NCBI GenBank assembly: GCA_029964075.1
Contig: CM057149.1
Span: forward strand, 21,280,197 to 21,344,196
DNA from: Patiria pectinifera
Lineage: Eukaryota; Echinodermata; Asteroidea; Valvatida; Asterinidae
Direction of reading: 5' to 3'
DNA: 64,000 bases
The notes under the pieces were generated by a model, which did no database searches, was not told the DNA's origin, and saw only the letters and a list, made by a program, of their open reading frames with translations. The position numbers were made by a program, and so were the translations under genes. Of the stretch, positions 5,601-42,733 are shown one piece after another (within the stretch, counting starts at the first letter, position 1; each line of letters opens with the position of its first letter).

Positions 5601-8600
5601 GGCAGCGATGGAGGCCTTGAGCAGGAAGTGACTGACGTTGGCGTTGAGCACACGGACAAAGAGAAGGTACATATTGGTGGCTTCCACGGCCATCCAGGCA
5701 ATGGACGCCAAGGTGAAGTAGTGGATCGAAACTGCCACAAAGGTGCAGCCTCCCCGGGAAGCTGTTGCCTCAATACCCACCAAGAACATGAAGTAGAGAC
5801 CCAGCAGGGCAAAGCACAGGCTGATCAGGATCTGCTGGGGACGCTTAGTCCGAAGTTTCCTTGTGATTCATTGAGAAAGGGACAAAACATCTTTCAAATC
5901 TTAGAGAGGAAGGTACCATCAGCCGGTACTTATTTGGCTGTACCTGAAATCTCTCATTGAGAACTACTGTCTAGGTCTTCAACAATTACAACTGCATTTG
6001 AACATGCTGAGAATAAACCTAGCCACAGCTCTGGATGCCTGTTTGAGACATGGCTGTTGTGTCTCATTGCTAAGCCAATGTATGACATTGGAGATTTTAA
6101 ATTCTCACCACAAAAGCGAGCATCGATGAGGCCCTTGGGGTCAGCGCAGATTGGAAGATTTGGATATTCCGGTTTTTCAATGGGAATCAACTTCATTTTT
6201 CAAATATATCTGACATGCACCAATGGGTAAAAAATCATATATTAGTAAAAGCTCAAGTTTATGGAGTCACGATTTGGCTAACTGAAACAGACAAGGTGAT
6301 GAAGCCCTATTTGTTAACTGAGTGGTATCACTGGCTGCAGGGACGTGAGTGATCCTGTGATTGTGAGCACTTACTTGCTGTACAGATATGTGACCAGAGT
6401 GATTATCAGAGCCACCACAGATACAGCACAGCCGATCTTGCTTATGACATCCAAAAAGACGCTGTCCTGTTGCCCATGAATGTCCTAGGAGGAAAAAAAA
6501 GGGACACAATTTCAGCTTAAGCCAAGTCAGCTTGAATTGGGCCACTATCAACCTGAACCGGGGCACCCATTTCATGGCACTGCTTAAAAGTTAACAGAAA
6601 GGTTGTGCTTACTATAGCAGAAAAACTGCGCTAACCTTAGGCAGTTTTTCATGGCGTGGATGTGCTGATGGTTGCGTGCACATGGAGATTCATATTGTTA
6701 CGTCACTGATTTATGGAACTTGTTTTCCTCTGAGGTTAAGCATGCCTTTTACTGTGCTTACTGGTTAAGGTCCCAATGACGGAGGCTCCGTTAGCAGAAA
6801 ATCCTGCTCTTATGGGCAGTGCCATAAAATTGTTGCTTTACTATTTCAAACAAATTCTGCCTCTGAACTTGGGGTGCTTTTTACTGTTTCCTGATATCCA
6901 GCCTCAATCCAATTTGGAAATATCCAGCAGCTGATAATTATTAACAGGGAAACAGTTTGTCGACTATGTTAGTGTCCAGAATGCTCTCTGTTCAGTTTTT
7001 TCGGTCACCCCAAGCCTCCTTGATTCAAATTATTCTGGCAACGCTCCTGTTTCTATTCTTACCACAATAACAGCGAAGCTGGTTAGGTGGTCACACAGAC
7101 ATCGGATGACGCCATTGGCCATGGATTCGTTTCTGCATCCCTCAGTGGACCAATCGCCGTACCCGTTATTCAGAGTGAAATCCCAGAACACGCACTCCGC
7201 ACTGCCAACCATCTCATTTTCACCGCTCACCTGAAAGCATTAAAACATGGTCATTTCAGAGAGAAATTCAAGATGATTTTGATTTTTGGGAGAGAAAACA
7301 TGGCTCATGTATTTAAGCATCTGTTCATTTTTTTTGCAAGATCCAAACTTGAAAACAGCTTTGCTGCAGTGCCTCTCAAATATATGGCCTATCAAAGCAA
7401 TTAATTCTGTATAGAGCGTGCAAGTCTCGCCAGTCCATGTGAACGTATTGGTACAAAAGACTGACAAGTCTAGTCACAGACCCGTGTTTGAATTTACCCA
7501 ATTTGTTATCTACGTGCTCAGTTGAATGAAAAGTGAGCTCAACATTTGTAATTTGATAACAGTCATCAATTCGAAATATTTTTAATATGTTGTAAAATTG
7601 TAACGCCTTCTTTCTTTCAAAATAGTGCTTTATTGCCCTTGACTGGATGGACCTAGTCATGACACGCCATAAATGAAAAAACAGGATGTAGCAAACGGTT
7701 GTAAATTTTTTAAATCAACTTGCTCGCTCCATTCAATAAGTTAACTTACATTGAGCAGACTGAACACACTTGTGACGGGCATGCGCAGATTGTTGATTTT
7801 GACGCCCTCCACAGTTGCAGCAATGACGCGGCTACCTACAGCTCGCCTCACTCCGTCCTCGGGCCTCGTCGCTTCGTTCAACGTGGGAGAACGAAACAGC
7901 CTGCTGTTCTGATACAGGAAGAAACTTATCGGAACTTGGTCACTATCGCCTGGTTTGTAGGACAGAAACAAAAAAACAACAAAAAATAAGTTGTAATTGC
8001 GGCCACTTCCAAGTTTACTTCACAGACTAATTCATTGAGATTCTGTTTCACTGGAGGAAATTGAAATGGTTTTGTTGTAAAATGAACAAAAGTACTTCCA
8101 AGGAAAGTTTTACAGCTCAGGTGACTTTCCTTACACATAATTAAATGTTTGAGATCTTCAAATGTTGCTGTCTTCTCTTTTATAATTATGGCAGCCAAAA
8201 AAAAATTTAAAAAATTAAAAAAAACAACTGAGAATTGATGCAGTGGTAGTCTTACATGTCTTACTTAATTTAATTTTGACTAGAAAATTCAGATTAGATA
8301 AGTGTCTGCTTTTCAAGGGTTGGTACTTGAATTAACTTCCACCTTGCATCTTTTGAGGCAAGGCTCAACAGGGCTCATTGTGTATCGCAGCGTTTGAGTT
8401 CAATTATCCATTAACACTTCTGCTGTCTGAACAGTCACAAACAGTCAAACAAAATCACTCCTATTCCCCTGCTATGCCTTTATACACAGTGCACTTGCCA
8501 ACAGTCAGATCACATTTCTTGTAAAGCACGTGAAACATGACTACTTTTACATAAGTGGCATTTTTTTTCAGCAACCCAAAGTGCTATTTTCATGATTTTT

Positions 8601-11600
8601 TTCAGTATTTGAAAGAAAAATCTCTCAGCTTTAATTTAATCTAATACCAAAACATAAAAAAACACCAAACCCTTTTTTTTTTAAAGCAAATGTTTTAGGG
8701 TTGCATTTTTTGGGGGGTTCACCCTACTGTATAGTCAAATTAAATTCATGGACAAAAGCAAGTAACTGGCAGGTTCAGCAGGCTTATCAATCTCCTACAG
8801 TCAAAGCATAGCTGTATCAAGTTCCATAAACAGTCACAGCCAGTCAATCCTGCTTTATGTGAACAGGGAGCTGTTAACCATTAACAACAGTCACTTGACT
8901 GTAGGTATCCAGGAACTGCACATACAGTGGAAGCATAGCATGGTTGGTGCATTTGATATTATAACACCTCACTCACAGTTCTGTGTCACGATTGGCCGAG
9001 AGCAAATCACATGATACTTTCTATTTTTGCTATCTTTCTGTGCACGGCCAAAAGTACTATACCCGTAGCAACTTAAGTATTATAACACCTCACCCACAGA
9101 TTCTGTGTCTTGATTGGCCGAGAGCGAGTCACATGTTACTTTCTAATTTTGCTATCTTTCTGTGCACTGCCAAAAGTACTATACCCGTAGCAACCAAAGT
9201 ACTATACCATTAGCAACCAAAGTACTATTTCCACGGCGCGGTATTTGTGTGCAAATGGATGCTGGTGTGCGCCTTGCGCGTAGCGCGTATTGTTCCAAAG
9301 AGAGCGCGCCGCAGACTTGGGTTCAAACATATCGTGAAGGGGTAGTTTCGAAGAGAGAAATACATTTTCCATCAATTTTGTATTGAAATTGAAATTTATT
9401 TCAACTGTGTTCGGATTTAAATAATTTAAAATATTAAAACCAAGCAGAATCTGTGGGTGAAGTGTTATAAAACAAATATTGAATGCTTTATCTCGTGGTG
9501 AAGTGAAACTAGCCTCCCTCGGTGATCCATGGACCATGCGGGCAATTCAGTTTTTGCTGCGTGGGTAGATTGATAACCTTATCAAAACAATGATGATTTT
9601 GTTTTTTGTTTTTTTACCTGTTTTAGGAATTTTGTCGAGAATTTCAGCAGGAAGGAAAATCGAGGCTTCTGTTTCCCTTGGTGGGTCTTCTTTGGTGAAC
9701 ACATAGGTCTGATTGTCAGTTAGATCGTTGGTTCCCGGGTCCCCAAGGGAAGACGCAAAGCCCAGGCCATTGGACAGGGCTCGACGGGGAAGGGAGAGGG
9801 CCTGGACGGCAATGCTGCTCTGTACCTCGGTGAAGTTACCGGCCCCGCTGTTATGCAACGCCGTGACGAAGGACTCCAGGGACAGCACGATGAGAGACGG
9901 AGAGTTGTCACGGCTTGCCTCATCCAAGATGGCTTCGTCGTCAATTTGGAGGACGTTGTTGACTATCTCGACGATTTGCACGGCAACCTACCAGACAAAG
10001 ACACCCAAAATTTGGATTATCGGTTCAAAGCAGGAGACTGGCTGTAGCAGTAGTTAAGCAGCTTTCCTGCAAGCAGCCTCCACAAAAAATGAGGATGCAG
10101 CTGAATTCATAGCACCAATATTATACTATTATTGTGAAGGTCAGATCAACGCTGAGATTTGTTGTCAAGATACTTTTGAGCTCATAGAATTTCAAAATGT
10201 TTCTCTCATCACACCCTCAATAATAAAAACCCTAGCTGCTCTACTACTACAACCACCCACATGTACCTTTCCCTTGAAATGAGAGCTTAGTATTGCCATG
10301 ATTGAAATTGTCAGTAAAAATGCAGCTTTTTTGGGGTATGAGGAGGAAAAACCATCACAAGTTTACCCAGGTGGGACCTGAACCCAAAACTTTCTTCCTA
10401 CAAGTGCACGTGTTTCGCCACTCGACCACTCATACACACCAATTCCGAGAAGTCTGTGGAGGCGGACCATGTGTTGAACTTGAACAAGGCCACTGTGCAC
10501 GGTCTGTTTGTGGTACAATTTACACTCCGTGGACACACCCCGGAGTGTTAAAATATATGAGGTTGAGGTAAAAAATATACTGCTGAATATGACTCTTGCC
10601 AATCAGTATTGTGGCGTTTGGCTGTTTATCAAAAGTTGGCTGCTATATTTTGCCTTTTTCGAAAATCTAAATTTTGGGCAAAAAAATAATCCTGTCGCCA
10701 AGTAATTTCTGCAAAATTGTAACTGCCATTGTGATTGCAACGTTGACCCTAAATGCTTCTCCAGACAATAAGGAAAATTAAACGAATGAACATTCATATT
10801 CTGGTATCATTTAGTTGTGGAAATGGAATCAGTCTTACCTCTGGGGAAGTGTTGTTGGCATCCACTAGATTCTTCAGAATTCCAGCGACAGACGTTAATG
10901 CCGCGGGACTGATGGCGCTGGCGTTAGACGTCAGGGATGCTGTCTCTTGGGCTACTTCCTCAGCATTCTCAGAAGTCACTGGCATCTGTGGGGTTCATTG
11001 GGCAAATTGACAAATTTTAGGGATTTTTCTATCCAAGGTCTAGTCAAGTAAGGGAAGAGCTGTTAAAGTTGCTCTCTATTAAAGTTGCTATCTTCAGTTC
11101 CATTCCCAGAATTAAATCGAATGGGACATCGAATAATAAAAATCTGCCGAATGGAAAATTTACTGTACAAATGTTGAATTTTTTGTGGTACGACATTAAT
11201 TCAGACCTTTCCCTTTATGCATGACCGGCACAAACGCAACATAAAACGAATCAATATCAGGTTTTTCCTGTCACGTAAAATTGTATTTTCAGAGTTTGAA
11301 AAATATCCAAAATAGATAAAAAGTGTTAATTGCCCTACCTTGCAGTATAATCTGTGCCACTGAACCACGCGCACTAAGAATCAGCCCTTAACTCTTTCGC
11401 TACGGCGAGCCGCTGACAGCAGCACACAAAAATTGTACATGTCGTACGGCAAGCCGCTGGCAGCGGCTCGGTCTGATGTCGCTGTGAATAAACAGGGGTA
11501 TCCCCATGATGTGTGCCTTATTTACATAATTTATATCGTATAACCTCTGACCCTAGTTTGACCCCCTGCCAACGGCTCTCCGTCTCGCCAGGGTCTGCGC

Positions 11601-14600
11601 TGCAGGTTATTTTGAGCAGTTAGTTTACAGAGAGACATTTAAAGATGGCGGCATCCATATCGACACACGGCGGAATTTCCAGCGATTTATTACGTACAAA
11701 CGTGAAAAAAATCGGGAAATTAAATTCAGTAGCGAAAGAGTTACGGGAGATTTCAACATATGAGGACTGCTTACTTTTGCAAGCTCATCAAGGTTTTCAG
11801 TGACGTCTCCCTCAAAGCATTTGAGAATGACCGGCTCCTTCCACTGCGGTTGAGATGTGAAGTCACCGACGCAGTCTCTGGTGGCACGAGGCATTCCCGC
11901 TAAGAGGAATCAGAACATAAAAACAATTACAGTACTTTGTACACAAGAAAATTCCTCCTCTGAGTACAGTGTTTGTTCCACAGGCCATAAATCATCAAAA
12001 CCAAGATTCCCACAGTCCTTCCACTACGCTTTAAGTGCATACAGTTTTCTTATTCAGTATCAAAACTACAACTCATATACTTATTTCAATTAGCAGTTTT
12101 GGAATATTACATTTTCATTTTTTTTATTTCAATAAAACTAATTTGAGTACACCAGCTAGCTTACTTTTTCTTACTGTTTACACATATATTTTTGAAGTTG
12201 GTCTTTCACACATGATTGTAGATTTAGTACCCATCAAGCAAGATTCAAGTAAATCTCACTGACAAGTGACAATCAAGGAGGCTTACCTCGGGTTGTGAAC
12301 TGGGGGCAGAGGTTCAGCGATTGCGCCGTCTGTCCAAGTCTGGTTTGCGGAAACGTCAGATTTCCTTCAAGGTATACCTCATGCGGGCAAGACACTGCAA
12401 AAACAATAGAACTAGATGTATTAATAATTAATACACTCTATTTACTCTGATGGAGATGTTGTTAATATTAGTGTTTTAAGAATGCAGCCTGCATTCGCCG
12501 AACTATTTCCGTGTGAAGGTTCTACATTTGATAGGTATACAGCAAACGTCCAAATTCACAATTTTGTTGACGTTTAAACCCACCTAAATTGACAACATTG
12601 ATGCTCTCAGATTCCACCATGAGCTCAGATGTTTCTCGTCTTTCCTGGATCGCTGCTGTCAACCGTTCCTGGAGTGCTAAATCTCCAGTGGGCTCGGTCA
12701 AACCGCACGGCCCTTCGCATTCCCCTCTGAATCTAGATCGGCGAAAGAAAACCACAACTTCGGCGACGATACTGCCACTCCTGAACGCAAGAATTTCAAA
12801 CTCGATGAAGTATTCCCTGCCCATTTCTTCTTGCAGGTTTCTGGTAACAGGAAACCAAAACTGTGACAAAGGGAAAAAAGCAGAACAGGGGTACAGATGG
12901 TGAATGAAAAGATTGGGGGCACCAAAATGTGTTGTTCCGAAATGCAAACAAATGAATTATTAGTAAACAGCTATTCTCGAGAACTACTTTCATGTAAGAA
13001 ACTGAAAATACAGGGAAAGTAAAAAAAAGAAAGAAGGAAACCCAAATGGCAGGACCAATTATTTAACAAAGTTCTACGTGTAGCACTTTCAAAATCTAGG
13101 AAAAATGAAAGTCTAATCAATAAGCTTTCTTTTAGTACAGGAATCATTCAAATCACTCATGTACTTTTCAAGGTACAGAATTTTAACCACAACCACCGTT
13201 TAAAGTTCTGTCCACGGATCACAAAAAGTTCTCACTTTGCTTGCTCATAAATGAATGTTCAACAAAGTATAATATAATCTGTACAAGCTAGATAGGCTTG
13301 TGCGGTATTGTATTGGAACATGAAAGTCCACCATATACAGTCACAAAAATATAGTGATATTCGGTATTATCAGGTACTTATCTGTGTTGACTATTGGCCG
13401 TCAAAAACAATAAGGCACATAGTGTTAGGGAAGGAAACTGCAAATAGGCAGCATGGGCAGAACTTATAATGCCCTGCTGGATGACTATAGTACATGTAAG
13501 TGCAATGTTCACCTTATCTAGAGACCGTGACAAGAAGGAATTTAAACATGCAGATCTGGCCAAGTAAATTCCATACCGAGGTCGTCGGTATTTTGACAAC
13601 ATAATTCGGTACTGTAAAGCATAAAAAATACTGTCACTAACTGGTATAATTGAAATATAGTCCAAGCCTTGCAAAAGCATTCTAAAATGTTGCAATCATT
13701 ATGGTATTCATTTCCATACACAAATGGATCAGTTACTTCAAAATCAGATGCTTCTGGATCGAGCTTGAAGATGCAAATAGAATGATTTGCGGTGATTTTT
13801 TTCCAATTTTCACTTTTAGCTGATGTGTTTCATATCCTATCGGTATATATATCTAAAATACAGAGTAAAAATTTCACTCACAGACCATGATTTTGCCTCT
13901 AAAGGTGTATTTTTTTAATATGCAGAAGTATATCAGTTCAAGAAATGCATATTCCAAAACTTTTAATGGGCAATTTAAAACCTATTTGACAAACAGCCTG
14001 AAAGAGGTTTTTTTTTTGACAAAACACATCACGTTTGTGGAACTTATTCTCTCATGCCTCTTTTATTTATAAAATGCCGAAGAGATTCGTTAGAAAAATA
14101 TGCCACCCACAAAATGAGTGAACGTACATTTTGTTCCAGTTCCGATCGGAGGTTCCCAAAGTCAGCGCTGTCTGTTACTGCCAAATCCTCCGTGTAGGTG
14201 CGGTTGAGTAGCTTCATTGTCACCTTGAAAGTTGTTACTTCTGCAGCATGGATATTGGAATGTACAAATGTATTTCATCTTAGAAACAACATGGTAGAAA
14301 GGGAATTCCTCTGTAGTATTATCCACAAGTTTTAAGAAAGGTGAGCTAAAACATTCTTGGCAAACCTCAAAATTATTTTCGACCTTGAAGAAGTTCCGAG
14401 TTTTTATTATAAAGTAAACTGTTTTTCTTTTGTTTAGTTCGCCACACCAAGATTATGCCATTTTGTTCGGAAATGTCTGCCTGAACAGTTTATTTCCCCC
14501 CAGTCTGAACCAAGAAATAACAGAACAAGATGACATAAGGAGTTAAAAAAAGTCTTCTCGGTACTGTTTTTTTATATTCTGACCTGTTACAGTCAATGTT

Positions 14601-17600
14601 GCGGGTTCCGTCCGCACTTTGGGCACGTTCTCATTCTCAAGAGATTTGCCCGGGATGCCCTCACAGACGTAAGCGCCTTGGTCTTGGGATCGTAAAACAT
14701 TCGTGAACACCAGCTGGTTCCCGGTCCGGATGAAAGTCTCAGAAGGGGCGGGGGCCGTCTTGTACCACCGATACTCCACGGCATTCTCAATGTAGCAGTC
14801 AAAGGTAACCGTTGCAGGCTCCTCCTCCCCAATGCCCGTCGTCACATCGGCTGATGAGGGAGACACTACAATCTGTGGATCTGTCACACAACAGTTTGGA
14901 AGAATCAAGAGAAAATCCTGAGTGAAGTGATTGGAAAAAAGGAAAGGCAATGACAGCACTTGGGCACAAACTTTTAAGGTTTTTTTATTTAAATAAAAAA
15001 CTACAGTAGATAGGTGCAATTCTGCAGAATTATAAACCTCAATGTTACAACTCCAAGAGCCATCGTTCCTTGCTCACTTTGTTGAAATGCCCTTGTTAGA
15101 CTCACCAGCCACAGAGATATTTCTGCAGATTCTGTAGGCTTCGTGAAGTGACCGGTTACTGCGGTCAGTGTCGCAGCCTGCCTGGTCGTAGCGCTGCAGT
15201 GCTTTTGACCATGGGGCTACGAGATCATCTGTGCAGGCCGGACTGGTGATTTTTGAGCAGTTTAGTGCCACTGCCTGTGGCGGTTGACCAATTATTTCGG
15301 CAGGATCATAACACGGGTATTCCTCTCTTCTCCCACCATAGCGTCGCAAATTGGGAACAGAGAAAAAAACGACCAATCCGAAGCTGGCGTTGGCCCGAAG
15401 CGGGGGCGTCAGGTCAAATTTCAGGATGGTCGCGGGATCGTTAGGCACGTACATCGAGTCGTATTGCCGTCTGTACATTTCAATGACTGGTCCACCGGCT
15501 CCTCGTCGTTTACGTTGAGGCAACGAGTTATCAGGCCTCATGTCCAGAACAACGGATACGACATCGGGTACAGCATCCTTCCCGTATTGGTTGACGAGTT
15601 GTCCACGCAGCACTGATGAGGAAACTGTGATCTGGAAAATGAACACTTCCGTCGTCCAATCCGTTAAGAGATAGGTATATCTTTCACTGGCCATTCTTTT
15701 TGAGAGGGAAAAACAACCAGATTCATCTGTGGAGAATTGGCGAAGCTCTGCAGATAGACTCGCACATTCACCGGCTGTGAACGAAAACATTGTTTTTCTT
15801 TTTATTTAGCGTTTAAATTTAATGAGATGGTATAAGACCCTGGCAATCAAAGATGGATCCCGATGATAAAATCTACTTCAAGTCAGTGACTGATCTTAGT
15901 TAAGTTCAAGAGAAAGGCATGAAACCATACTAAACCGTAAAGAATTACTTTAGCAATCGTTTGCAAAGTATTAGATCCACGTCGACACAAATACAACCTA
16001 GAACTATTACCTGCATACTAAAAGCACTAGTGTATAACCGTTGTTGCTCCAATTTACCTCCAAATGACCCCCATCCCCTATCAAGACAAGGCGTGCCTAG
16101 TAAGGGTGGTTAAGGCAAAGCACGCAACAAGCTCTGCAATTGAGCCATAATGGCTAAAAAAAAAAGTTTGAAGAATAAGCTGTAGAAGTAATGTGATGGA
16201 AACAAAAACGCCACTTATGCTGTTCGCATGGTGACTTGAATAATGGCCTACACATGTATCATGAACGTATCTGGCACAAAAACAACCTTTAGTTTTTACA
16301 ATAATCCTTGTTTGGACATTTCTCGGTGAACAAAATAATCCGAAAATATACGTTTTGTAAAGAAACTTCCGGCTTAATTTGAAACCTCATTTGGGAACAT
16401 CGCAATTGAATGCAGGGCCTGCATCACTGCCTACAATTGTGTGTTGCAATGCACATTGAAAATCTTGTTAAGTGCAACTTTTAGTTTTGGGGTTTTAGGT
16501 GCTTCAGCGCCTGTGCTCTCGTTATTTCTTACACAATGTTCCCAAGTGAGGTATCAAGTTGAACCAAAAAGTTTCCGTGACAAAATGAATGAATTTTTTC
16601 GAAATGTTTTGTTTGATTATAAATGATGATTATAAATACTGCGTAGTTTCTTTCTGTGCCAGGTGTACATGAAACAAGCGGGCTGAGCTCGACTAATGCA
16701 CCTGTCATTTTTGTAAAAATTGCTTCATCACTTCCATGAATAAGCAATTAAACCTTGTAAAGTCAGGCCATTTAATAGTCAGTTAGTCTACAAAGAGTAA
16801 ACTAGGCTGGACATCTACGACAGACAGAATCGAAGGAGAACAACTTACCTAGTGGAGAAACAGTTGTAACAGTCTCATGCATGACAGCTCGCTTAGTGTA
16901 ACGATCCAGGAAACATTGAAAACTGTAGGGGGAAAGAAGGTGTACAAAGATGACTTTACTTTCAGTAAGAAGGCGAAAACTACAGAAGGTGCAAACAATA
17001 TTCAGATATAAAACAAACAAACAAACAAACAAGCAAACAGCCATCCATGATTTTTGATTGTGTGGAAATGTATTGAATTTGGGGGAAATAAGTATGGCGG
17101 AATGAGGGGAAAAAAAATACAATTTTTTGAGCATTTGTGATGCGATAAAGCTAAATGAGTCGTTTGTTGGGAAACATGCCAAAATTGGGCCACTTCATCA
17201 CATCACTTCATCATATCTCTTGGTGTTCCCTCTTCCATAATTTTTTGTTTTTAACCAAAAAAGGCATCAGCATGCGTTTTTTACAGCAGTAATGCTGAGA
17301 TTGTGCTCTTTTCAAATCTGTAATAAAAATTGTTTGACCAGGGTCCACAAACGACTCATTAAGCTTGATCGCGTCACATTTATTAGATTTGTTAAAACAA
17401 TGCAAACATGCTTTTTATAATAAGTTAACTCATTCACATGTGATGACTCACAAATTGATTGTGATAAAATTGTTGCTTTTTTCCCCAGAGTACATTTTCA
17501 ATCCCTTGCTTGAACTGTTTGGTAAAACTGACAAATGGAAAGTTTCCAGATGGAGAGCGAAAAATGTAGAAATGTACAAATATAAAAAGACTGACTATAA

Positions 17601-20600
17601 AAATATCTTTTTTTTAAATAAAAATACACGAACGATTTTACAAGCTCCAATGAGTAATGTAACTTTACCTTTGTGGTGTGGATTCTACAGAAACCTGAAG
17701 TATTGCAGAACCATTTCCCCTGACTTGAACGACATCATTAACGTCATACCACTCGACTACCGGTTGAACAAGGCCGGTTCCCACGCAGACCAGGGACACT
17801 GACTCTCCTACGGCCGCTGTCTGGTCCGGACTGACATGTTGGAATTCAGCCGGAGCTGTGAGGAGAACAAGCTAAGCTGATTCAGCAATGACCTACAATG
17901 ACTCACTTTTTTTTAATTAAAAAAACAAAATGGACATTGTTGCTGGTTCAAAAAGAAGTATTCACTCAATTTCTCAGAAGATTGTGACACTTTGTATTGT
18001 CTTTAAAGGGAAAATACAACATTTGCAAACATCAAAAAATAAAACTACCAAATCATTTTGAAATACCTTGCTGGACTGTTAGTGAATGACAGTGTAAAGC
18101 ATCCTGTAAAATCATGGCACCTGGTATACTGTCATTTTCAAAAAAAGAGGTATTTTTGTATCAATTTCCAACGCTGGTCGGCCGACCAGCGTTGGAAAAA
18201 AACTGGGTTTTTTTCAAATACTGGCCCCAATTGACCATCGCACTTGTTTGCAATCGATTACACACCTATGAACGGATACAAGCCAGCTAGACTGGTTTCC
18301 TGACCTTACAATTCCCCAATGTATGTAAACTGCTCTGTTTCTTCTTGTATGGAGTCAGGGAACCAGACTACAGGAAAATGATTGTTTTTCTTGGTTTTTA
18401 TAGCATTTTCGAACACAAAACCTCAAAAAAGTCAGTGTAACTATATTTGCTATATATTTCCAACCCCCCAATTCCATCCATTTCTGAAAATTACAGCAAA
18501 AGCAAATGATGTATATTCCCTTTAAGCGAACTTGACTCCTTATTCGGTTGATCCATGTCAACAGTGTGATATAGTACCTAACACCATGGCCCATGGCCCA
18601 TGGCCCATACCGCACTCTGCGTATCTCACTATTCTACATGTTCTAAGATGCGTGTGCAATTTCTTTGGTGTAAAAGGACAACCCCTGGAAAGTTGTGTAC
18701 AGCGTACATTTTCCATATTTACTGTTTGCTTGAAGATATGTTATCCCACTAGCACTCGTGATCACATCTGTCATGCGTCTGTGTTTCATATGCTATTCAG
18801 CCTCGTGGTATATGGGACACAGACGCACGTTTATTCCATGTTCCACTGGTGCTTGTAAGATAAATACAACTGATACTTTTCAGGTGTTATATATCATTCC
18901 AGAAGATGAAGGTAATACTAGTTTATTATTTTTTAGGTTTTGTGATAATTCCTTGTGTAGTTTTGTAATTCGTTTGTTTTAAAGGATTCGTTTTTATCAT
19001 GCTCAAATTCTGTCTACAAAAAAATAATCTACAATGTTCAAACTCAATTTTCTTGATTAAAATCACAATGTGCAGCAAAATACACTGTTTAGTCTTAAAT
19101 TAATTTCAATAGCCTTAAGTAAATTGTTCATGATAGGCTATAAGCTACTTTCTGACATTGTTTTTTTTTTGGGGGGGGGGAATGGGTGGACTTCACTGAC
19201 TCGAATCCAACAATATCAATTATGATCAATCATTTTTATAGAGATTTTACTATGACCTCAGTATTTCAGAGTTTCTCCCACAAAAGTTTTCAGGAAATAA
19301 TTTCTGTTTGCCTCATCAAACTTAATGTAAAAGGTTTTATTTTTAGCTTGGTACAGACTTTGTAATACAAAAATACAAAAGACCCCTTTTTGGCCAGGAG
19401 GGAAAATGGAGGCGAAGCGCAGCCCTAGCGAGCGCGATTCACGGTGCATAGCAAATGACATAGTCTAGTGCTGTGCTGCACATCAATTACGCCCCGTGCC
19501 GAAGATGGCGGCAATATCCGTGAGCCTGTCCACTGTCGGGACCATCATGAAATGATAAATTTACAGGACTTACACAAGCAAGGTTTAACGATTTCTTCTA
19601 TGGCTGTGTCGTGGTTTTCCATCATGCAAGACAAATATCCAGGAAGGGGAGGTGGTCGAAGGAATTGCGACATGTCTGATCCGCCAGGTGCCTGTACTCC
19701 TTTCCACCACTGGTACGCTCGGAGACAAGTGTCTGACACCTCGCAATCAGCAGCCAGGGTTCTAAACTGAACGGACAGGCAGTCTGTACACCTGCTCTGA
19801 ATGGGCTGAGGATCATAACACGGGTACCATCTGTTCTCCACGTAACCCACCATTATTGCGATGATATCACCGGGCCGGACGGAATGCGGGACTTGGAGGG
19901 TGACCTCTGCCGTTTCTGGAGTGGTCAGTCCAGGGTAGACCTGCCAAAATTGATTACAAAGATGCACTGTCTATGCTAACTTTATTTCCGCACTAACGGG
20001 GTACAATTGACTGGAAATGTGGGATTTGAGAGGGGGACACTGGAGGGTACTGCGCCAAGCAAGATATTTTGTTGTTGTTTCCTGTGCATTCCTGAGTCCT
20101 TGATGATCATGCACACAAACAAGGACTTGCTCTGTACTTTAGAAATTGCATGGGTCATCGTATAATTACGTGCGTAACAAAGACGGAATTTTTGCTACAA
20201 ATTGACAGGACACTAATTATCATGTGCATGAATTGACCCAAATGTCATCTAATTCATATTCATAGCCCATTTAGGAGCACTGCAGCCACAGTAAACACAA
20301 TTTTGTTGGTCTTCAAGACACTTACTGGTACAGGTAATGTACATGTACATATCGTGGACAGAAATGTTGTGACAAGTTTCTGTCCATGTTGCGTACGTAA
20401 TATTCTGAACATAAAATGACATCTGAAATATATGGTACATTGTCTTGGTTTTTCAATATTTGATGAGACATTTATTATAATTATAACTTTTCTATCAATA
20501 TTAACCAACTTTCTGTCCATGTTACATACGTAGCATTCTGGGCATACATATGTTTCAGAGCAGGTGTATAGTCTATCTATTGTAGTGCTGCCAGTGCACA

Positions 20601-23600
20601 GCAAGAAAATTAAAAATAGCAACTGCCACAGAGATCACTCTTGGCCAATTTACATACAGAATCTGTGGGTGAAGTGTTATGATATTTATATAGATCTACT
20701 AGTACTGTTCATACACACAGTCAACTGGGCAAATGTAAATAAAATCAATGTGATTTATTTTTTTGGTTTAGCACAGACAATGTCACACATTGACGAAGGT
20801 TCTCATCTTTTGAAATCCAGCTAACATATTTCTACTAAGGGCTGATATTACACACATTAAAGATGCAATTGATAAAAATATTGGTCAAAACATACCCAAA
20901 AGTTTTCTACAGATTTTCTTAAGGGTGTGGATATGTCCACAAAGATGAAGACACCCCGTCTATTGCCAGTTATTTCCGGTGAATACAACTCATCAAATTG
21001 GCCCCACGCAACGCGTACCTGTTGGATATTAACAAATTTGTCATCACTCAAAAGAGAAAAGAAAATTGTGAAAAATTTAATTGTAATTTAAATAATAATT
21101 GTTCAAATCTACTTTTTGTCTTACTAAGCATTTCTGTCAGACCAGATGTACATCCGCCACAGTAAACATGTAAACCGTGCAGTCCGTGTCATGGTCGGGT
21201 CGCTGCCGACTAAGCATTTCTAGTTCATTCGTAAAGGGAATATACAACATTTGCTTTTGCTGTAATTTTCAGAAATGGATGGATTTGGGGGTTAGTATTT
21301 TATAGCAAATATTGTTACACTGACTTGTTTGAAGTTTTGGTTCATAGATGCTGGAAAAACCAAGAAAAACAACCATGTTATCATAGTCTGGTTCCCTGAC
21401 CCCAGTTAAATTGAAACGGAACAATTTATAGACGTCGGCAAATTGTAAGGTCAAGGAACCAATCTAGCTGGCTTGTACCCCTTCATAGATGTGTAATCAA
21501 TTGCAAACAGAATGCCGACTTACTAAATATGGTCAATTTGGGGCAGCATTTGAAGGAAAAAAAACAGGTTTTTTCCAACGCTGGTCGGGACCAGTGTTAG
21601 AAATTGATACAAAAATACCACTTTTCTTGAAAATGTCAGCACTCCAGGTGCCAGGATTTTACGGGATGCTTTTAGCTAGATTGTCATTCACTAACAGTCC
21701 AGTAAGGTATTTCATAATAATTTGGTAGTTTTGTTTTCTGATGTTTGCAAATGTTGTATATTCCCTTTAAATGATGAGATAATTAAGCTCTGCCAAATCA
21801 AGCAGCTGAAATGGTATTTTACTCTACACAACTACAAACTGCTGAGTCGTTGAAGATGACGGGGATATTCAGGTAACAGTTCAAACGGGGATCACAAAAT
21901 CAACAAGACAAGGTTAATCTAGTAAAGCTGTTCCCAGAGTCCACAACATTCTATTCAATTTTTTCTGAATGAACCCTAACCGCCCTGAATCCGAAGTGGA
22001 GCAATTTGGAGGACTACAGGATTGCCCTCTCAGGGACAAGCAAAAATCGGTCAAAGAGAATTACCTAGGTTCATCAAAAACTTTGCACAAAGAGTTTCAT
22101 TTTGTAACCATGCACTGCATGAAATATGTTCAATGTTATGAACGGTGGGTTTTTTTTCGGGGGGGGGGGAGATTTGGTTCTGAAAGCCATTCTATAGGCA
22201 CCAGTCTAGACGAAAGAGATTAAAAAGAAACTCACCGCAGTTAGATGAATTGAATCCTGACTGATCGCTGGCACCGCAAATCTAGAAACAAAACCGATAT
22301 CGCCTTCTGGGTAATCCGTTGCGATGGCATCTTGCCACCCGTGGGAGTCTGTGCAGGAATCCAGCAGGCCCACATCCCCACAGATCTTATCTATTTAAGA
22401 AGATCCAAAGAGAAGAGGACATGCCAAGTGCCAAGGATTGTAAATGGCAGACCTACAGCTTTTCCTTTTGTCTGTTGTAACTGCATGACTCATATACAAG
22501 CTGTGTTTGTTAAAGTTTTGCTTTGCCATAAAGATATAGTCCATCATTTGTAATTTGTGCATTTTGTTCGTTTGAAGCAACAGAAGTGTTCAAAATCTAA
22601 TGAAGGATACTGAACAACTAACCTGATGAAGTTTCAGCTCAGCTTCAGCTGTATATTCCGAGAAAAACAGCATTCTAGGATCTCAATTTCAAATCAGAAG
22701 TTGCTGAATCATGTTTTGAATTGTTTAGAATTGCAGCCATATGCGATATCGCGCAATGATCCGACGAATTATAGCAACCGCGCGCGCGTGTGCGTCGTGC
22801 CAATGCTTGCACGCGCTTCGCCGAATAACAAAACGAGCTACTAATTTAAATTTCCTATGGTGCGTCTTAAGACGCACCGTTGGAAAGCCCTTCTTTCGCT
22901 GTTTACTTCAAAATGACAGCTTGCCAGAAAGAATGATTTCAAAGGGAGTTTAGTCCACTTACTATCTTTCAACCAAGTATTTTTTTAACAATACTTACGC
23001 CAGTTACTTTTCGGATGGCTGCAAATGATATACTATAGCTTTAAATCCAGTCCTACCTTCACAGTCAGCACCGGAGAAGCCTGAACTTTCCTCATAGTCA
23101 TACCATGATGAATCATCTAAAAATCCGCTCCCCTCAGACTCGCAAAGAGACAACGTTGACGTTGGTTTGCAAACATCGCCGGTAGTCTGTGATCCACCGT
23201 CGCACAGGGTGTGATCAGGATTGCCACATTCTGTATGTTAATTGGACGGGAGAGATTAATAGGCAAAAACATTAGGGGATGATTATGATGATTGATTGAT
23301 GAATGATTAGGAGATAAAATGGTTAATGCTCATTTAAGGTTAAGATATGGGAAAAACGAAAATCCATGAAATGATCGTCAGAGGGTTTTGTTGCCAAGAG
23401 CTACATAGGGTCTATGGTATATGTTTGTAGTTGCCTTATAGGCAATCCTTACAATACTCAATCCTTTTGTTCTACATAAACTTTTTATATAGTTAAAAAA
23501 AAAACATTTATGGTAGAACCTCTGGAACTCCAAATTTCAAATGAGATTCATTCAATATCCTGAAATCAGAAAAATAACGCGGACCAAAAATCCTAAAAAT

Positions 23601-26600
23601 CAAAAAAATCCGGACCAATAAACACCTGAAATCAGTAAAAAAATCTTGAAAAAACTTTCCCCTGTCGTTTGAACAGGTGACCATGATACACTCTTGATTG
23701 AGATGAAGATGAGGTTTTAAGCAAGCCACTATATTGGTTCAAAGTCGTACAAATTTACCCTGCTCAAAACCAAAGTACCTGAACAGCGGCACATTACACG
23801 ACAGCACTATATTGGTTGCTTGGGCAAATTCAGAATGTAACATTGACTTTGTACTCCTCCTTTCCCCTCCCTTAGTCTATATGTGAGCAGATTCACTGAT
23901 TAATTAGGCTAGTCCCCACCTTTTGACCTCCTAGATTTTGACCAATCAGCGAGCGCTTTCTATATCGGGTCTTCGGTCATTCACCCGTTGCGCTTCAAAG
24001 CCAATGGATTAAAAAAAACCTGCGTTACGCGTTCTGTTATCATGTTATCAATGCGCCCGGCTGTTGTTGCATTACAAAACACTGCATTCGAATGACCAAT
24101 CAAACCATTTAGTCCTGATTTAGGAAAGAAATGACATCACAATTTAGTAAAGTCGACTCCGATTGGCTGGCACGCGGCTTGCAAATATGTATATGTCTAG
24201 ACATATCAGACGTTATACAAGAGTCTTGCTCCGTGGATAACGGGTGATACTCAGACTACCCCTCCCTCATGGCAATCTGGATCAAAGAATGAGCACACAG
24301 TCTCAAAATCTGAACACAGATGGCGAGTTTGGCAATTAATTTATGTCAGAATTATGAATCCCGATTACCCAAATATAAATAATTCAACCAGGAGTCAGGA
24401 CAGCCCCAACAAAGAGCTCCGTTTGCATTAATACAATGCTCTTTCCGCCAGTTTTCAACTTTTTGACTTAAAGTGGCAAAGTTACGTATTTTCACCCAAC
24501 AATAAAGCATGACTGAACTGGAAGAAGTACAATCTTTGGCAGCCTCAACTTCAGTGGTCTTAACAAATTTGATCAAAAACTGAAATACTAGAGTTCAGAA
24601 ACAAGACGACAATATCTGGCAATAACTCCTCATAATTGCAGAGACATTACGTAGCTCCTTGGTCACTCCATTTATTATTCTTAGGCTATTGTTCCGTGTT
24701 TGTTTCTGGTTTTTATTTGGTTGCAAAATCACCCTGGTTTGCTTCAGACTATAGTCACAACAAATCCACAAGAAATGTTCGTGTCCTAACAAGAATTTCT
24801 TTTGAATTAAACAATAAGTGATCTTGAAGTAATTTTAAAGTTTCAAACAGTAGTGGGCCACCAAATATTTCTCACAACAATTCATATGTAAAACACATGC
24901 TCACATCAGCTACATTTGAAACACTCTACCATACTCACGTGGAATAATGGTGAGATTGAAAGCGCACTTTGCAGTGTTCCTTGGATTGGACACGTCAATA
25001 AATGTGTATACAACTGGAGTGACACCGACATCGAAATAGCTCTCATAGCCAGGTACCCGTGTTTCATATGTCCTCGGTCCCTCGGCTCTAGGACTTATTA
25101 TCCCCAATCGGTTGCCTGGAGTACCTCGGATGTATTCAACGCTCAAATTGAAGCCCGCCATTGGGCAGTTTGTCACAATGATAGGCTCAACATACTCTGC
25201 ACGAAGTTAGAGAACAGAAAAAAGAGTTACAGAGTTGATACATTTACAGGGCAAAAAATACGAAACCCCAATGTCGGGACCATTATTGTAGTGAAGTGCT
25301 GCATGTAGCACTTTCAAAATCTAGGATATAAAAGCCCAATTCATAAGCTTTCATTTAGTACAAGAATCATTCAAATCACTTATGAACTTTTCAAATTAGG
25401 GAATTTTAAACACAAACATTGTTTTAAAGTTCTGTCTCCTAGGCGTGAGACAGAGACTGTATAAAGTTGCAGCGATATTACCTGCAGCCGATGTGTTCAA
25501 GACTTGGTTGGGTTGGCCTGAACAGATCAAGGGTGCAATCATATAAACAGTCGCCCTTATTCTTATTCTTAAATACTAAGGTCTTTAAGTTTATTCACAC
25601 GAATTTGAAAACCTTCAAAGACATCTTGGTCTTCTATTTCAGTTTCAATTGTCACTTATTGACCCCCACGTACACGTATTTCAGGACATCTCATTTACGT
25701 ACAGCAGTATGGGCTCCATGCGCCAACAAAGAGGGCGCCCTTTTACCTAGCAACGACGTCCCATGGGTGGGACATTTAGCTGGTTGATGCGCACCGTTCC
25801 TTGTGTGTGACGCACGTACACCAGGGGTTTTGGGGGTCCGCTCATAAGTCCGATGCCTCATAGGTCCGACGCCTCATAAGTCCGACAAAATCGTATCCCC
25901 TAACCAAATAAAGGCCCACAAGTCCGACGCCTCATAGGTCCGACGCCTCATAAGTCCGACACCTCATAGCTCCGACGCCTCATAGCTCCGACGCCTCGTA
26001 AGTCCGACAAATTAAACGCCTCGTTTTTCCGTTGTCGGACTTATGAGGCGTCGGACTTATGAGGCGTCGGACCTATGAGGCGGAATAAATAAATGTTATG
26101 CCTCATAAGTCCGACGCCTCATCAGTCCAAAATTTCGGACTTATGAGGCGTCGGACCTATGAGGCGTCGGACTTATGATACGGCCCCGGGTTTTGTACTA
26201 TGTACACGCAGTGGTATGGCCACGCATCGCGGCAAAATTGCAGTCAGGCAAGATGGTGTCTGTTGGTCATCCACAACTGTTCGTTCTTTGCCAGTGAGGG
26301 GGTACTTGTGAACGGAGCTGATAGGGGTGTGTATGGGTAAATGGTACCAGTCTGCATGTATTTTAGAATTGTTTTTTTGAAGGGGGGGGGTTTGAAGCTA
26401 CTCCCCTCCTCTTCTACCCAGGGCCCCTCCCCCACCCCCTCCCAATCCTCCTCCCCCACCTCAATTTTAATAGGCTATGTCTTGGTCCTTCCTAGCTAGC
26501 CCCCATGGCTTCAAACATTGTGGTTACAATTTACCTTCTTCCACTGTGATTCTGAAGGAGCATCTTCCAACATTGCCTGCCAAATCCTCAAACTCGTAGG

Positions 26601-29600
26601 TGACCACGGTTGTTCCAAGGGGGAAAATTTCACCGGATCGATGGCTCTGATTCCTCAGACGGACGCCCTCTGAGTCGTCCGATGCTTCAGGCTCTTCCCA
26701 ACTTGTCGGCCGCCCTTCCGCGCCCCGGGGGGCCACTCCTGTGATGTTACCTGGGCAGATTACTATTGGTGGAACATCATCTGCAGAGACGCAAAAATAC
26801 CAGTAGATCATGAAAATTCAATATTAGCCTTACAGTTCACCAACGACAAGCCTGGTGGTGGCACACTTTTAGAACTTGAAATAGGCAAAGTAACGTGCAA
26901 ACTTCTAAAATTTGCCATCAGTTATGGGCTTTTGGCACATTGATTACTTAAGAAAATCACCCTCACAGAAAAGCCTTTGTGAAACTGTTATTAGCATCTC
27001 AAACGGAAAAATATCATACATAGAGACATATCGTGCCAAAAATTAAAAACCTCTCCCTTCTGAAAACCTAAAAAGTATACTAAAATAAATCCCAGTACAC
27101 GGAGACTACTATGATGTACTTTACTGGTACCGGTGTCGTGCCAAAAACCGTCCGGTGCCAAATAGTGTCCGCTGAGCATGCGCAGTAGGCGCCAGACACT
27201 ATTTGGCATGTAATACATGCCAAATAGTGTCCGGTGCCAAATAGTGTCCGGGCGCCGTCGATCGAGGGAGAACAAGGGCGCACGTACGTACGTCCATGGA
27301 GGAAGGAACATGGTACGTCCTGCCGGACAGTACATGTATTAAGCTGGAAAAATCGGACAGTATTTTCCAGGAAAAATCGGACAGGTGAACTGACGCGCGG
27401 CGAAAAAAACACACAAAAATTTTGCACAAATACAATGTTTAAACTATTAGGGAAACCAAGTCAAATAGTTATCACAGATAACAAGGAAAACGTTAAAACA
27501 GATTGTAAAAAGCAAATTCAGGTGGAAAGAGATCTTTTTATACGATGTATTGACAGCTCGACAAGGCACGCAATAGGATGCACGCTAAGCGCGGACACTA
27601 TTTGGCAAGCGGCCGTAAACAATGTGACGTCATAGACGCATGACCAATCAGATCGCATTATGCTAATTAGCGGACACTATTTGGCACCGGACGGTTTTTG
27701 GCACGACACCGGTAGTAATGAAGCTCGGTGTAGTTTACTCATAAAAAGATGAACATTTATGGTAGTCACTGGGTTAAAACTGAATATTATATTGGAGACT
27801 AAGATCTCTTCCAGGATATACATTTTTTTTAAAATAACGTTGAAGGACTCATTAGAGTTTACAAAAAAATCCAAAGTGACTGCATCGGCTAGAACCCATA
27901 GGCTGTAGGCACATTTTCATTCTCACGCAAGTCCACGATGTGAAAACAAACTTATTTGAACAAGGAGATCTAGGGACAAAAAATTCAGGACGTGAAAGGT
28001 CGTGAGTAAAATTCATTTTTACCCATCCCCAAGTGATTTCTCATCTTTTCTTTTGTGAGGAATACCAAGATAAAATTCCAACATGCATGTTTCTTGGGGT
28101 GATGATTACGATAAAAAATCACTGTCAACAATTACAGCAAGAGAATATACCCAGTATAAAAATGCCCTAGGCAGGCCACGTGAGGGTCTGGAAGCTAGCG
28201 ACAACACCTCTACTTTAACGCCGAGTTTAGGTGATCCATTCTTGACATACATGCGTGTTCTCGTGCTCGAATGGCGGGAACACGACCTACGAACACTGCA
28301 CTCGGAACAGGATTATGCATCACCGGTACCTATCCATCCGGGTTTTGCAGGAACAATAAACCCATGTTAAGAACGGATTCAACCCTACGACTGTATGTTT
28401 GATAAATGAGGCACTTGACTCAAAGGATCCTTTTAAAGTATTGTTTGGATTTATAAATGTATTAACATAATGTCCAAGCAAGCCACTCTAAAAAAAAAAA
28501 GCCAGCTACACACTCATAAACATGCGTCGTAATATTCACACCACGTTATTTGTACTAAACCTTCTGCCCAAAATACCAGCCACATGTGTTCATTTCAATC
28601 GACTAGGCCCGACTATTAAAATCACTTGTGACTATTGCAATTCACAAGTCGCCTGAAAATCTGTGATCCAAGTAATTTAATAAATTGCCCAATAAAGACT
28701 CCTTAAAAAGATCTTTTTTGGGCCTTTTTTCAATTACTTGGGATCACAGATTTTCAGGTGACTAGTGAATTTCAATAGTCACAATTGATTGTAATTGTTT
28801 CCATGTTGTAGACAAATTACAAAGGATTTTAATCAATTTCAACTTACCAAATATGACCTCAACTGTGAAGTTACACGTTTGTAGTTGTAGAATTCCTAAT
28901 GATGGACCAACAAAATCATAGCGCACCACTGTTCGGCCGATTGGAAAGACGTCCCCAGGGCTGTGCGTACTAGTAGTGCTGCTGTCTAGGGCTGTCTCTG
29001 GTGCTGATGGTGGTGTCCATGTCACGGGCGTGGCATCCTGAGCTGTGTATGCCACAACAGGCTCAGGGCACTTTACTATTTGTTAATTTGAAAACAGAAT
29101 GATAGAATCAGAACTGGCTTGGGCCTCATTTTTTGGGGGGGGGGGTGGTAGTGGGGGATCGGGAGTGGGACACATGGCGAGAAAGCTACCACAGGCTGGG
29201 GTTGATGACAGAGGTGTCCCTCTCCATCAATTTCACCACAAAGACCACATACATGACATATAAGTCTTCCCTTTTGACTTCCACACTCCAAGTTATACAT
29301 GGTTTAAGTTGGTGAGAAGTAACATTTTCTGTCAGAATATCTTTATTTCTGGCATAAGACTGAGGTGATGAAGCAGAGTTGTAGTAGAGTCCGTCACAAC
29401 ATCACAACGAACCGTGCACAGGGTGTTGAAAACCTAGATGGGTTGAATAGACATGTAAATGTGGCCAAAAACAGAAGAAAAGTGCCCAACTTGGCAATAC
29501 TTAACAGTAATTTTCATGCCCATTTCATTATTTCCTAACCCCCTAGCAGTTCCTCAGGACTACCCTGCTAAATCCAACAGAGTCCAACTGGAGTTTTAAC

Positions 29601-32600
29601 TTCCTGCTCAATCCACTGTGCCTTGTTTTCAGTCGTCCGCTGAATCCAACGGAGCCCAGCTCGCCTTTATTACATGTATGCGGTTCAGTTGCCTGCTGAA
29701 TCCAACATTTTGCATCACTGAGGAATGTACACCAGGGGTTTACTGCTCAATCCAACAGGCCCCATCGGGTATATGATATAGTTGGATCCTGTTGGATTCC
29801 GCAGGGTTAGGGTTAAATTAATGTAGTTATCTCAAAACGCGAGTTTTGCCACTACAGACTCATTTTTGCAGAGCGGATCACATATTTGGATATAACATGC
29901 ACTGTGCCCCAACCTGGTGGAATGATCGACACAGAACGCTTTTGGCATGAAATATGACCCCCAAGGGGAAATCAGTTCATGGAAGTTGCTTGCCCTGGTT
30001 GAAAAAAAGTCAACCGTTGCACATGCATCAGTTGTCAACCAAATGGTTCTCGGTCTCTACTTCCCTTTCAAAAAACATAAATCACACAGAGCCATAATGA
30101 ATGCGAAAAGAAAAGACAAACATACTCTAATAAAAAGTACAATTGAACGTTAAACATTTAAAGTGAGAAAAAATATATTTTGGGAAACTATTATTACCTC
30201 GCGTGTCAACTGTTACTGTAAAAGAACAAGTGAAATATTCTTCTTGAGATTGTCTTTGCCACTGGTAGGTGACCACAGTGACTCCGAGGACAAACACATC
30301 CCCAGGTTGATAGTTTTGATACGACAAGCGGAACTCGGCCTGTTGCTCAGGGACGTCAGGCCAAGTGACTGAATTCCGTAGCGTACCAGCATCGGCTAAG
30401 GCAGTTACGTCATTTGGGCACGTGATCACTGGAGGGGGATCACCTGATGAAATAATAAGTACGAAATTCCAGTTGAATTCAGTAAATAAATAATGGTAGG
30501 CCCATATAGTGGTTACTGTTCTTTTTTTTGTTAAAGTTGACTAGAAAAAGGTAAATTTATTTGCCATGTCAACTGATTCATTTAGCTTTCTTTCCCCCAA
30601 ATGGGTTGTTGCCTTGCCCCTCAGACATAGACACACTCCCGATAGAGAAGATATCAACAAGTTAGAACAAATATCACCAGATCAGCAATTAAGAAACAAC
30701 TTCATTCCTAAAATGGACATTGTTGTTATGTGGTTACATTCCCAAAGATTTCAACGATCTTGTGAACGCGCAATACCAGGCTAAATTGCACAGCACCAAC
30801 CATAAACAGCGTCAAAAAATCGTAATTTCTACTCCGAAAAACTGTTGAAAATTACAAAAAAAGGTGTCATTAGAATTGAGAGAAGTCTGCTTGATAGGTT
30901 GAAAAGATAACTTTTAAATGATAAAAATAAAATCATGATCGAAACAAAACAGACTTCTTCTCTTAATTCTGATGACACTATATATTTTTGTTATTTTGAA
31001 CAGTGTCTTGGAGTAGAAAAGACAATTTTCTTACGTATGTTACGGTTGGTGCCAATTCATGCAAATTAGCTCGACTGCATCTGGTCGTACAGTACTATCG
31101 CAAGCTCTGTAGTACGGCCAAAAACACGATGATCGGTCATCAGCTCCCATGAATATCATCCCGAAAATGTTCCTCCATGCGATTTCAAAATGGCGGCTGC
31201 GTTGTAATGTATGCGGGTGCGCTTGGGCAAGATTATGAATATGCATTGCAGTTTGTGACGTTTGTCAGGCACACAGCGCGGCTGGCCATACAAACACGAG
31301 GTTATGAACTAAATAATGCATATTCATAATCTTGCCCAAGCGTGCCCGCATAAATGTATACATTACAAGTACAACGCGGCCGCCATTTTGAAATCGCATG
31401 GAGGAACATTTTCGGGACGATATATATAGGAGCTGATGACTGATCATCGTCTTTTGGCCAGATGGATGAAGATGAAGATGACTAGGAACCTTAACTTTGG
31501 AAACTTCTGTACTGGATGAGAAGATAATAATCAGTAGCAAAATCGCTACACAAGAGTTTTAGCGTTGAGGGGAGCATAGGTTGTCTGGCCGTACCACAGA
31601 GCTTGCGATAGTACTGTACGGCTAGATGCCGTCAACTGACTAATTTGCAAATCAATACGGTTTTGTGCAATCACGGTGCGTCCTGGAGATCGCCATCTTA
31701 CGCCATGGTGTTGTCGTCTTCATAGTGCTAACCTGTCAAGTCCAACATGTCTCACAACCTAAAAGTGGATTTTCACCAGGGCCCACTACACAATCGCCAA
31801 GATTTATATTCCTGACCCAAAATATATTCTTCATTATCCAGGGGACTGTCGAATCTCTCCTACTTACTGATTAATACTGTCACGTTGAAGGTGCAGCTTT
31901 CTTGACGGATTTCCCTTTTGCTGAAGGTGTACTGAACTGTTGTCGATCCTACCACGAAGCTATCCCCTGGGTTGTGTGTGCTGCTCACACGGTCCAGATC
32001 GCTCGGTGCAGTTGGCGGTGTCCAGAACAGCGTCACTGGACGCCCTGTGTCTGAGTGCGCCAGTATATTGTCTGGGCAAGCCACTGTCTGCAGCTCTGTA
32101 CAGAGCGGGAAAAAAAACAATTATTGACAATTCCATGGTAACTGAAATTATGTTTATGTAGATACATGTAGAAGGGGTCGACCGTCAACTTTTTGATGTT
32201 ATTCTCTAAAGTCAACGCATTTCCTAACAGACATGACAGAAGATTGCTGTGTAAACTGTGTGTAAACTACAAAAAGTGCCAACTAAATAAAGTTCTGTTG
32301 GTTTAGCAATAAGTTTTGTATTGGTAACTGACGTTACAAAAAGAGCCCAAAAATATTTGAATAACTCGCACCAAAAGTGGTGTGGAAATGCGTTTGTTTG
32401 TTTCGTCCCCAAGCTACTTTTTTCTTCTTCAAATGTTTGCTGATGTTGCAGATGACGCTTCGACCCTCTTAAAACTCACAAAAATATCCTTCAAAGTGGA
32501 GCTTGAGGTGACCTCAATAAGGCCATAAGGCTTGAGAATTCTGCTCCCACTTACAATCTCGACCAACATGAACACTCTTCGGGAAATTTGGATAGTCAAG

Positions 32601-42382: not shown

Positions 42383-42733
42383 CTTGCTGCAGCGTTGGTA
42401 ACTAATACACCCCGTCGAAACCAAATTTTTACTAAAGTGAAGACTTCATAGTACCACTGTCATCCTTGAAGAAAAATATGTAGATCAGTCACGGAATTCT
42501 TTCCTCCCCCTCTGAGTGCAACTTCCTGTGATTTTCTTCATTACACCAGTCAAGGTGGCAGATAGGTCACTAGGATTTCCTGTAAACAAATACCCATGCC
42601 ACAAAATGGCCATCGTTGGTGGTTGCTTTTTTCCAGGATCTGATTTGTTAGATATCGCTGGCAAAAAGTTTCGGGTACTGTTCGCGGATTCATGGTATCC
42701 TGCAACAAAATAATACCACTGCTTTCAGCCTAA

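Follow-up and report, generated by a model that had tools for sequence, protein, structure and literature searches.

Two probably homologous, unnamed extracellular modules and a short, putatively copied string in a predicted adhesion receptor gene of Patiria pectinifera

Do two regions of one receptor gene that share a conspicuous hexapeptide represent an undescribed extracellular module, and is the hexapeptide the mark of that module? The question is raised by a 64,000-nt stretch of the Patiria pectinifera genome (GenBank assembly GCA_029964075.1, contig CM057149.1, positions 21,280,197 to 21,344,196), hereafter called the window. Its minus strand carries a predicted adhesion G-protein-coupled receptor (GPCR) gene in which two regions, X1 and X2, each stand before an immunoglobulin-like (Ig) unit. 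A first-pass annotation had proposed that X1 and X2 are one undescribed module, duplicated as an X-Ig pair and sharing the peptide YPCYDP. We assign a probability of about 0.65 to the following reading: X1 and X2 are ancient duplicates of one unnamed module of ~200 residues, they belong to a cassette of the order X-Ig-X-Ig plus SEA, and YPCYDP was copied from X1 to X2.

The exons of the two X regions and the two Ig units are as follows.

22236..22390, minus strand: X1 exon 1 (exon 10 of the first-pass annotation), phase 1 to 0, with framework cysteines 1 and 2; open frame and splice sites.
20896..21018, minus strand: X1 exon 2 (exon 11), phase 0 to 0; open frame and splice sites.
19574..19940, minus strand: X1 exon 3 (exon 12), phase 0 to 1, with YPCYDP, framework cysteines 3-6 and the Trp; counterparts in copies B and D (see below).
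17669..17855, minus strand: first exon of Ig1, phase 1 to 2; splice sites, Pfam Ig_2 at E 2.5e-5, below the curated cut-off.
16849..16922, minus strand: second exon of Ig1, phase 2 to 1; splice sites.
15106..15774, minus strand: single exon of X2, phase 1 to 1, 222 full codons; open frame and splice sites.
14584..14880, minus strand: single exon of Ig2, phase 1 to 1; splice sites, Pfam Ig_3 at E 8.4e-5, below the curated cut-off.

AG precedes and GT follows every one of these exons. The proposed layout, with X1 in three exons separated by two phase-0 introns and X2 in one, was borne out in its coordinates by the frames and splice sites, and the exon phases agreed with each X being a phase 1-1 unit followed by a phase 1-1 Ig unit. 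We add that Ig1 is split by a phase-2 intron and Ig2 is unsplit. Crude Chou-Fasman strand values for the N-terminal, middle and tail parts were 0.32, 0.33 and 0.23 in X1 and 0.43, 0.32 and 0.14 in X2. In both modules the strand content was lowest in the tail, consistent with the beta-rich middle described earlier.

The window gene, designated copy A, lies on contig C21. A protein search of the 613.5-Mb genome with one query, X2 of copy A (X2-A), found three copies besides the query itself: B (C21:19.40 Mb, 71% identity), C (small contigs C75 and C135, 73%) and D (C21:8.51 Mb, 33%). A fourth match, with E 2.1 and two stops, was rejected as chance. Long stretches of C75 and C135 matched B at ~94-98% identity, and the two contigs agreed with each other at 98.5% over 3.7 kb, so copy C is either a recent duplicate of B or its second haplotype. 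On C135, X1 exon 3 (L018:3576-4047) carries a frameshift, which marks this copy as a pseudogene or as poorly assembled. The order X1-Ig-X2-Ig-SEA was kept in B and D, the SEA domain of both included. Copy B was 79% identical to X1 exon 1 and 78% identical to X1 exon 2 of the window. In copy D, as in the window, three exons joined in phase 0 encode X1 and a single exon encodes X2; the Ig units of D matched Pfam at E 1e-4 and 5.4e-4, again below the curated cut-offs. The proposed middle exon of X1-D is:

L013:1955-2065: X1-D middle exon, of the same phase as X1 exon 2; pyrimidine tract and donor.

It was chosen among 29 open AG-GT candidates, and its profile score was not significant. If this exon is read correctly, the intron difference between X1 and X2 predates the split of A and D.

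We searched for a named domain corresponding to X. Neither X1 nor X2 matched Pfam up to E 10 (four X2 and three X1 sequences), and none of the 177635 distinct PDB sequences matched X2-A alone, the X2 profile or the X1 profile up to the same limit. In NCBIfam, four unrelated bacterial models appeared at chance level, the best at E 0.047 with the X2 set and 0.061 with the X1 set. No match to X2-A was found in phages, and neither the 32 pattern stretches found in prokaryote genome contigs with the X2 profile nor the 21 found in viral contigs with the X1 profile included a relative. In a literature search confined to papers available without subscription, none with YPCYDP was found, and no such module was named in the portions of text covered. 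By sequence, the putative X module thus matches no named domain in the libraries searched (Pfam, PDB sequences and NCBIfam), and within them the description of the module as undescribed holds.

It is possible, at somewhat below even odds, that X combines a Cys-rich tail with a strongly diverged version of a named beta-sandwich or jelly-roll domain, such as those of the C1q/TNF, galactose-binding or DOMON type. The strand-rich crude profile would fit such a domain, as would a PGD-plus-strand stretch in X1 that we take to resemble a jelly-roll. The silence of Pfam toward seven X sequences and of PDB toward the profiles speaks against a named domain, and it is compatible with kinship at the level of the fold.

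The question of whether X1 and X2 are related to each other was approached through their cysteines and through alignment. The X sequences share the framework C..C ... C-x(4-7)-C-x(6-7)-W-x(n)-C-x(13-15)-C. All seven sequences (X1 of A, B and D; X2 of A, B, C and D) contain the six framework cysteines. The spacing from C5 to C6 is 16 in six of them and 14 in X2-D, and the Trp follows C4 by seven or eight positions in six, X2-C having lost it through a deletion. Among 5379 open reading frames (ORFs) from the window and loci L008-L023, the C-terminal Cys/Trp pattern occurred in six, all of them X1 or X2; X2-C, which has no Trp, and the frameshifted X1-C were unmatched. Around copy D, the pattern occurred in 2 of 3922 ORFs, a set that overlaps the former, and both were X. 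Shuffled X1-A, X1-B and X1-D matched it in 63, 60 and 11 of 20000 cases, respectively.

With the motif included, X1-A and X2-A were similar by BLASTP (E 6e-4), and their alignment was equalled by 0 of 1000 shuffles locally and 32 of 1000 globally. When all 12 X1/X2 pairs were scored with BLOSUM62, the number of 300 shuffles as good was 1 for the A pair, 5 for X1-A/X2-C, 11 for X1-A/X2-B and 19 for X1-B/X2-C. With BLOSUM45, the A pair alone stood out (2 of 300; the next had 46).

Several results weigh against common descent or limit the evidence for it. Once YPCYDP was set aside, neither sequence nor profile comparison gave significant similarity: with BLOSUM62, 68 of 2000 shuffles were as good as the masked A pair, 95 of 300 as good as X1-B/X2-B and 277 of 300 as good as X1-D/X2-D. 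The hhalign comparison of the X1 and X2 profiles was likewise not significant (local E 0.075, global 0.06; without the A members, 0.29 and 0.081). The limits of the Cys/Trp pattern were widened with X1 in view, the full-length pattern fits five of the seven X sequences (X1-A and X2-C fail), and X1-A and X1-B carry three extra cysteines. All paralogue comparisons were made within one genome. Finally, the ratio of nonsynonymous to synonymous divergence (dN/dS) between A and B was 0.53 for X1, 0.62 for X2, 0.62 for Ig2 and 1.02 for Ig1 (60 codons); the Ig units evolve as fast as X, so fast evolution is a property of the ectodomain and not of X alone.

These alignments would also suit an unlikely alternative, in which X1 and X2 are unrelated spacers of similar length, the Cys pattern is a coincidence and YPCYDP is an 18-nt transfer and nothing else. 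No significant X1/X2 alignment was obtained with the motif masked or in the other copies, as expected of such spacers. However, a Cys/Trp pattern present in X1 and X2 and nowhere else among the 5379 ORFs, albeit with limits chosen in sight of X1, and the equal place before Ig with phase-1 ends, kept in B and D, argue against it. We therefore consider homology of X1 and X2 probable, on the basis of the six-Cys/Trp framework, the place before Ig and the equal boundary phases rather than of sequence scores. The proposed duplication of an X-Ig pair stands as far as position, phase, order in B and D and framework are concerned, and did not gain significant profile-profile support. The X module would then consist of strand-rich N-terminal and middle parts and a C-terminal framework of six Cys in all and the Trp, each copy heading an X-Ig unit.

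The peptide YPCYDP probably has a different history. It occurs once in X1 and once in X2 of the window gene, at the following sites.

19809..19826, minus strand: 18-nt string TACCCGTGTTATGATCCT, encoding YPCYDP in X1 (exon 12), the likely donor.
15299..15319, minus strand: 21-nt in-frame insertion in X2, encoding YPCYDP and then Ala; a gap in copies B and C.

The first 18 nt of the insertion (15319-15302) are TACCCGTGTTATGATCCT, identical to X1 exon 12 including silent sites, and the string occurs in these two places only in the window. A degenerate codon pattern for YPCYDP gave two exact matches in the 613.5 Mb, both in the window gene; the reversed control gave one. The insertion is missing from X2-B and X2-C in the DNA alignment, and the protein alignment shows a gap at this point in X2-D; YPCYDP is not in X2 of copies B, C or D. 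At the motif place X1-B reads DQCLDP, with 4 of 18 nt different from X1-A, and X1-D has nothing resembling YPCYDP. Genes B and D keep X1-Ig-X2-Ig, yet neither of their modules has the peptide. YPCYDP as a family signature was rejected on copies B, C and D, and what had been taken for a defining property shared by the modules looks in X2 like an 18-nt copy.

The synonymous divergence (dS) between X1-A and X2-A was ~4.4, saturated at silent sites, on an uncertain alignment. Exact matches in 60 codon-shuffled controls reached 12 nt at most. Of all strings of at least 14 nt within the 1785 coding nt of X and Ig, only TACCCGTGTTATGATCCT and one 15-nt string recur in the window. The latter (19787-19801, minus strand), 7 nt past the X1 motif, recurs on the plus strand at 20554-20568 in the preceding intron, about as expected by chance. 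Two other insertions relative to B, one in X2 and one in X1, have no 14-mer in common with another place in the window.

Identity over 18 nt including silent sites, between modules that are otherwise saturated, makes recent copying the simplest account. The counterpart DQCLDP in X1-B indicates that the place is native to X1. We thus propose that 18 nt were copied from X1-A to X2-A after the split of A and B, through either short-tract conversion or a repair event that used X1 as template for the insertion; copying in the opposite direction is less likely. By eye, the motif place is alike in both modules, past the last strand-like stretch and ahead of the Cys-rich tail, which leans toward conversion between related modules.

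An ancestral YPCYDP that later disappeared from X2 of copies B/C and D is quite improbable. X1-A and X1-B do share a Cys and Asp-Pro at the place (YPCYDP and DQCLDP), as an old motif would. Nevertheless, two losses would be required, all 18 nt agree between X1-A and X2-A, silent sites too, despite saturation elsewhere, and X1-B already differs from X1-A at four of them. An assembly error in X2 is very unlikely, because the 21-nt insertion is in frame within an otherwise intact open exon, although a single assembly lies behind the sequence.

The proposed copying from X1 to X2 concerns a small piece of a larger gene, whose other parts are listed below as spans of open frames, except for the short Cys-rich exon.

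24910..34587, minus strand: seven HYR repeats in separate open frames; Pfam HYR in seven stretches, E 1.1e-79.
23057..23230, minus strand: short exon rich in Cys, placed after the HYR repeats and before X1, phase 1 to 1; open frame and splice sites.
12525..14274, minus strand: SEA domain in two open frames; Pfam SEA, E 9.4e-9.
2115..10985, minus strand: GAIN, GPS and seven-transmembrane (7TM) part; Pfam GPR128_GAIN_subdomA 1.1e-4, GPS 1.5e-15 and 7tm_2 2.6e-23.

The Pfam query for the receptor was the exon translations joined without exact splice ends. The order on the minus strand is seven HYR, X1, Ig, X2, Ig, SEA, GAIN/GPS and 7TM. GAIN with GPS, followed by a secretin-family 7TM, scored above the cut-offs of all three models, and HYR scored 263.2 bits in seven stretches (curated cut-off, 21.7). 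The gene carrying X1 and X2 is thus a predicted adhesion GPCR. The short Cys-rich exon has a counterpart in copies B and C, with 41% identity over 44 residues. A Cys-containing exon near 11.8 kb, which we take to resemble a hormone-receptor motif, had no Pfam match. A probable first exon at 42032-42445 encodes, by eye, a signal peptide and then tandem Thr/Pro-rich repeats of ~20 residues. A dispersed repeat of ~530 bp occurs twice, in opposite orientations, in the introns flanking X1 exons 2 and 3 (18003-18526 and 21232-21770). Elsewhere in the window, copies or parts of it were seen at ~44.9 kb and ~59.1 kb, and others near copies B and D.

Receptors of the ADGRF5/GPR116 type are adhesion GPCRs with SEA, Ig and GAIN. 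The window receptor resembles this type, and through its GAIN the GPR128/ADGRG7 type (by Pfam model name), in having probable Ig units, SEA, GAIN, GPS and 7TM on one chain. It differs from both in adding seven HYR repeats and two X modules.

Within 150 kb around copy D, a further pair of HYR adhesion GPCRs, named E and F, stands in tandem with D on the same strand.

C21, from ~8.465 Mb (HYR), with 7TM to 8.4775 Mb: receptor E.
C21, 8.484-8.492 Mb: receptor F.
C21:8465355-8492196 (loci L022, L024 and L025): E and F together, upstream of D.

Both gave HYR, GAIN, GPS and 7TM matches, as in the window receptor, whereas X, Ig and SEA queries found nothing in them better than E 0.14. The distance from the last HYR frame to the next receptor exon found was 1.3 kb in E and 1.9 kb in F. 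As E and F have no detectable X, Ig or SEA, the X-Ig-X-Ig-SEA block appears to have been gained or lost as a unit, and seems to behave as a shuffled cassette in a subset of HYR-type adhesion GPCRs. Either gain by A, B and D or loss by E and F would account for this. Parts of A and B, paralogues 1.9 Mb apart, also look as if homogenised at the first SEA exon (14122-14271 against L009:2101-2283), which is nearly identical between them (dS 0.016 over 42 codons), unlike X1 and X2 (dS 0.26-0.29).

Amphioxus adhesion GPCRs have lineage-specific ectodomains, including Kringle, Somatomedin B, SRCR and C-type lectin domains, identified by Pfam models (PMC2246102, as far as the accessible text goes). 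They resemble the window receptor in having shuffled extra domains, I-set Ig among them. Their listed domains, as given in that text, are Pfam-identified, whereas X of the window matches none. The available part of a 2026 review (PMC13197933) makes no mention of HYR or hyalin repeats.

X1 and X2 are, judging from the dN/dS ratios given above, constrained yet fast-evolving, as expected of a surface with a changing partner, a role that we propose for them. The heads of adhesion GPCRs attach to matrix or to an adjacent cell and transmit pull or ligand binding to the GAIN/GPS region. The six cysteines, if paired, and the Trp-bearing tail suggest a rigid head. The twin X modules may thus be disulphide-stiffened, fast-evolving binding heads held off the membrane, which would relay occupancy by a ligand, or pull, to the tethered agonist at GAIN/GPS. 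With seven cysteines in X2-A and nine in X1-A, the copied loop adds an odd Cys, which might form a bond between the modules or remain unpaired. A more far-reaching and rather speculative version is that X is a new extracellular fold of one animal lineage, used as paired ligand-binding heads, and that loop copying moves odd-Cys surface loops between them. If this were true, the heads could come to match or be cross-linked, and diversification could proceed by loop exchange inside one gene.

Adhesion GPCRs gain specificity through added ectodomains, and unnamed ectodomains are where ligands not yet known would bind. The window probably holds such an unnamed and duplicated extracellular module inside an otherwise recognisable receptor family, with a YPCYDP string that is real but was misread. 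Structural studies would find a defined target in such a duplicated module, which has a regular Cys framework and on which the domain libraries are silent. The case would also illustrate how 18 nt can pass in frame from one exon to another of a single gene, and it advises caution: where divergent modules have a striking motif in common, the motif may be no family signature but the product of recent nucleotide copying.

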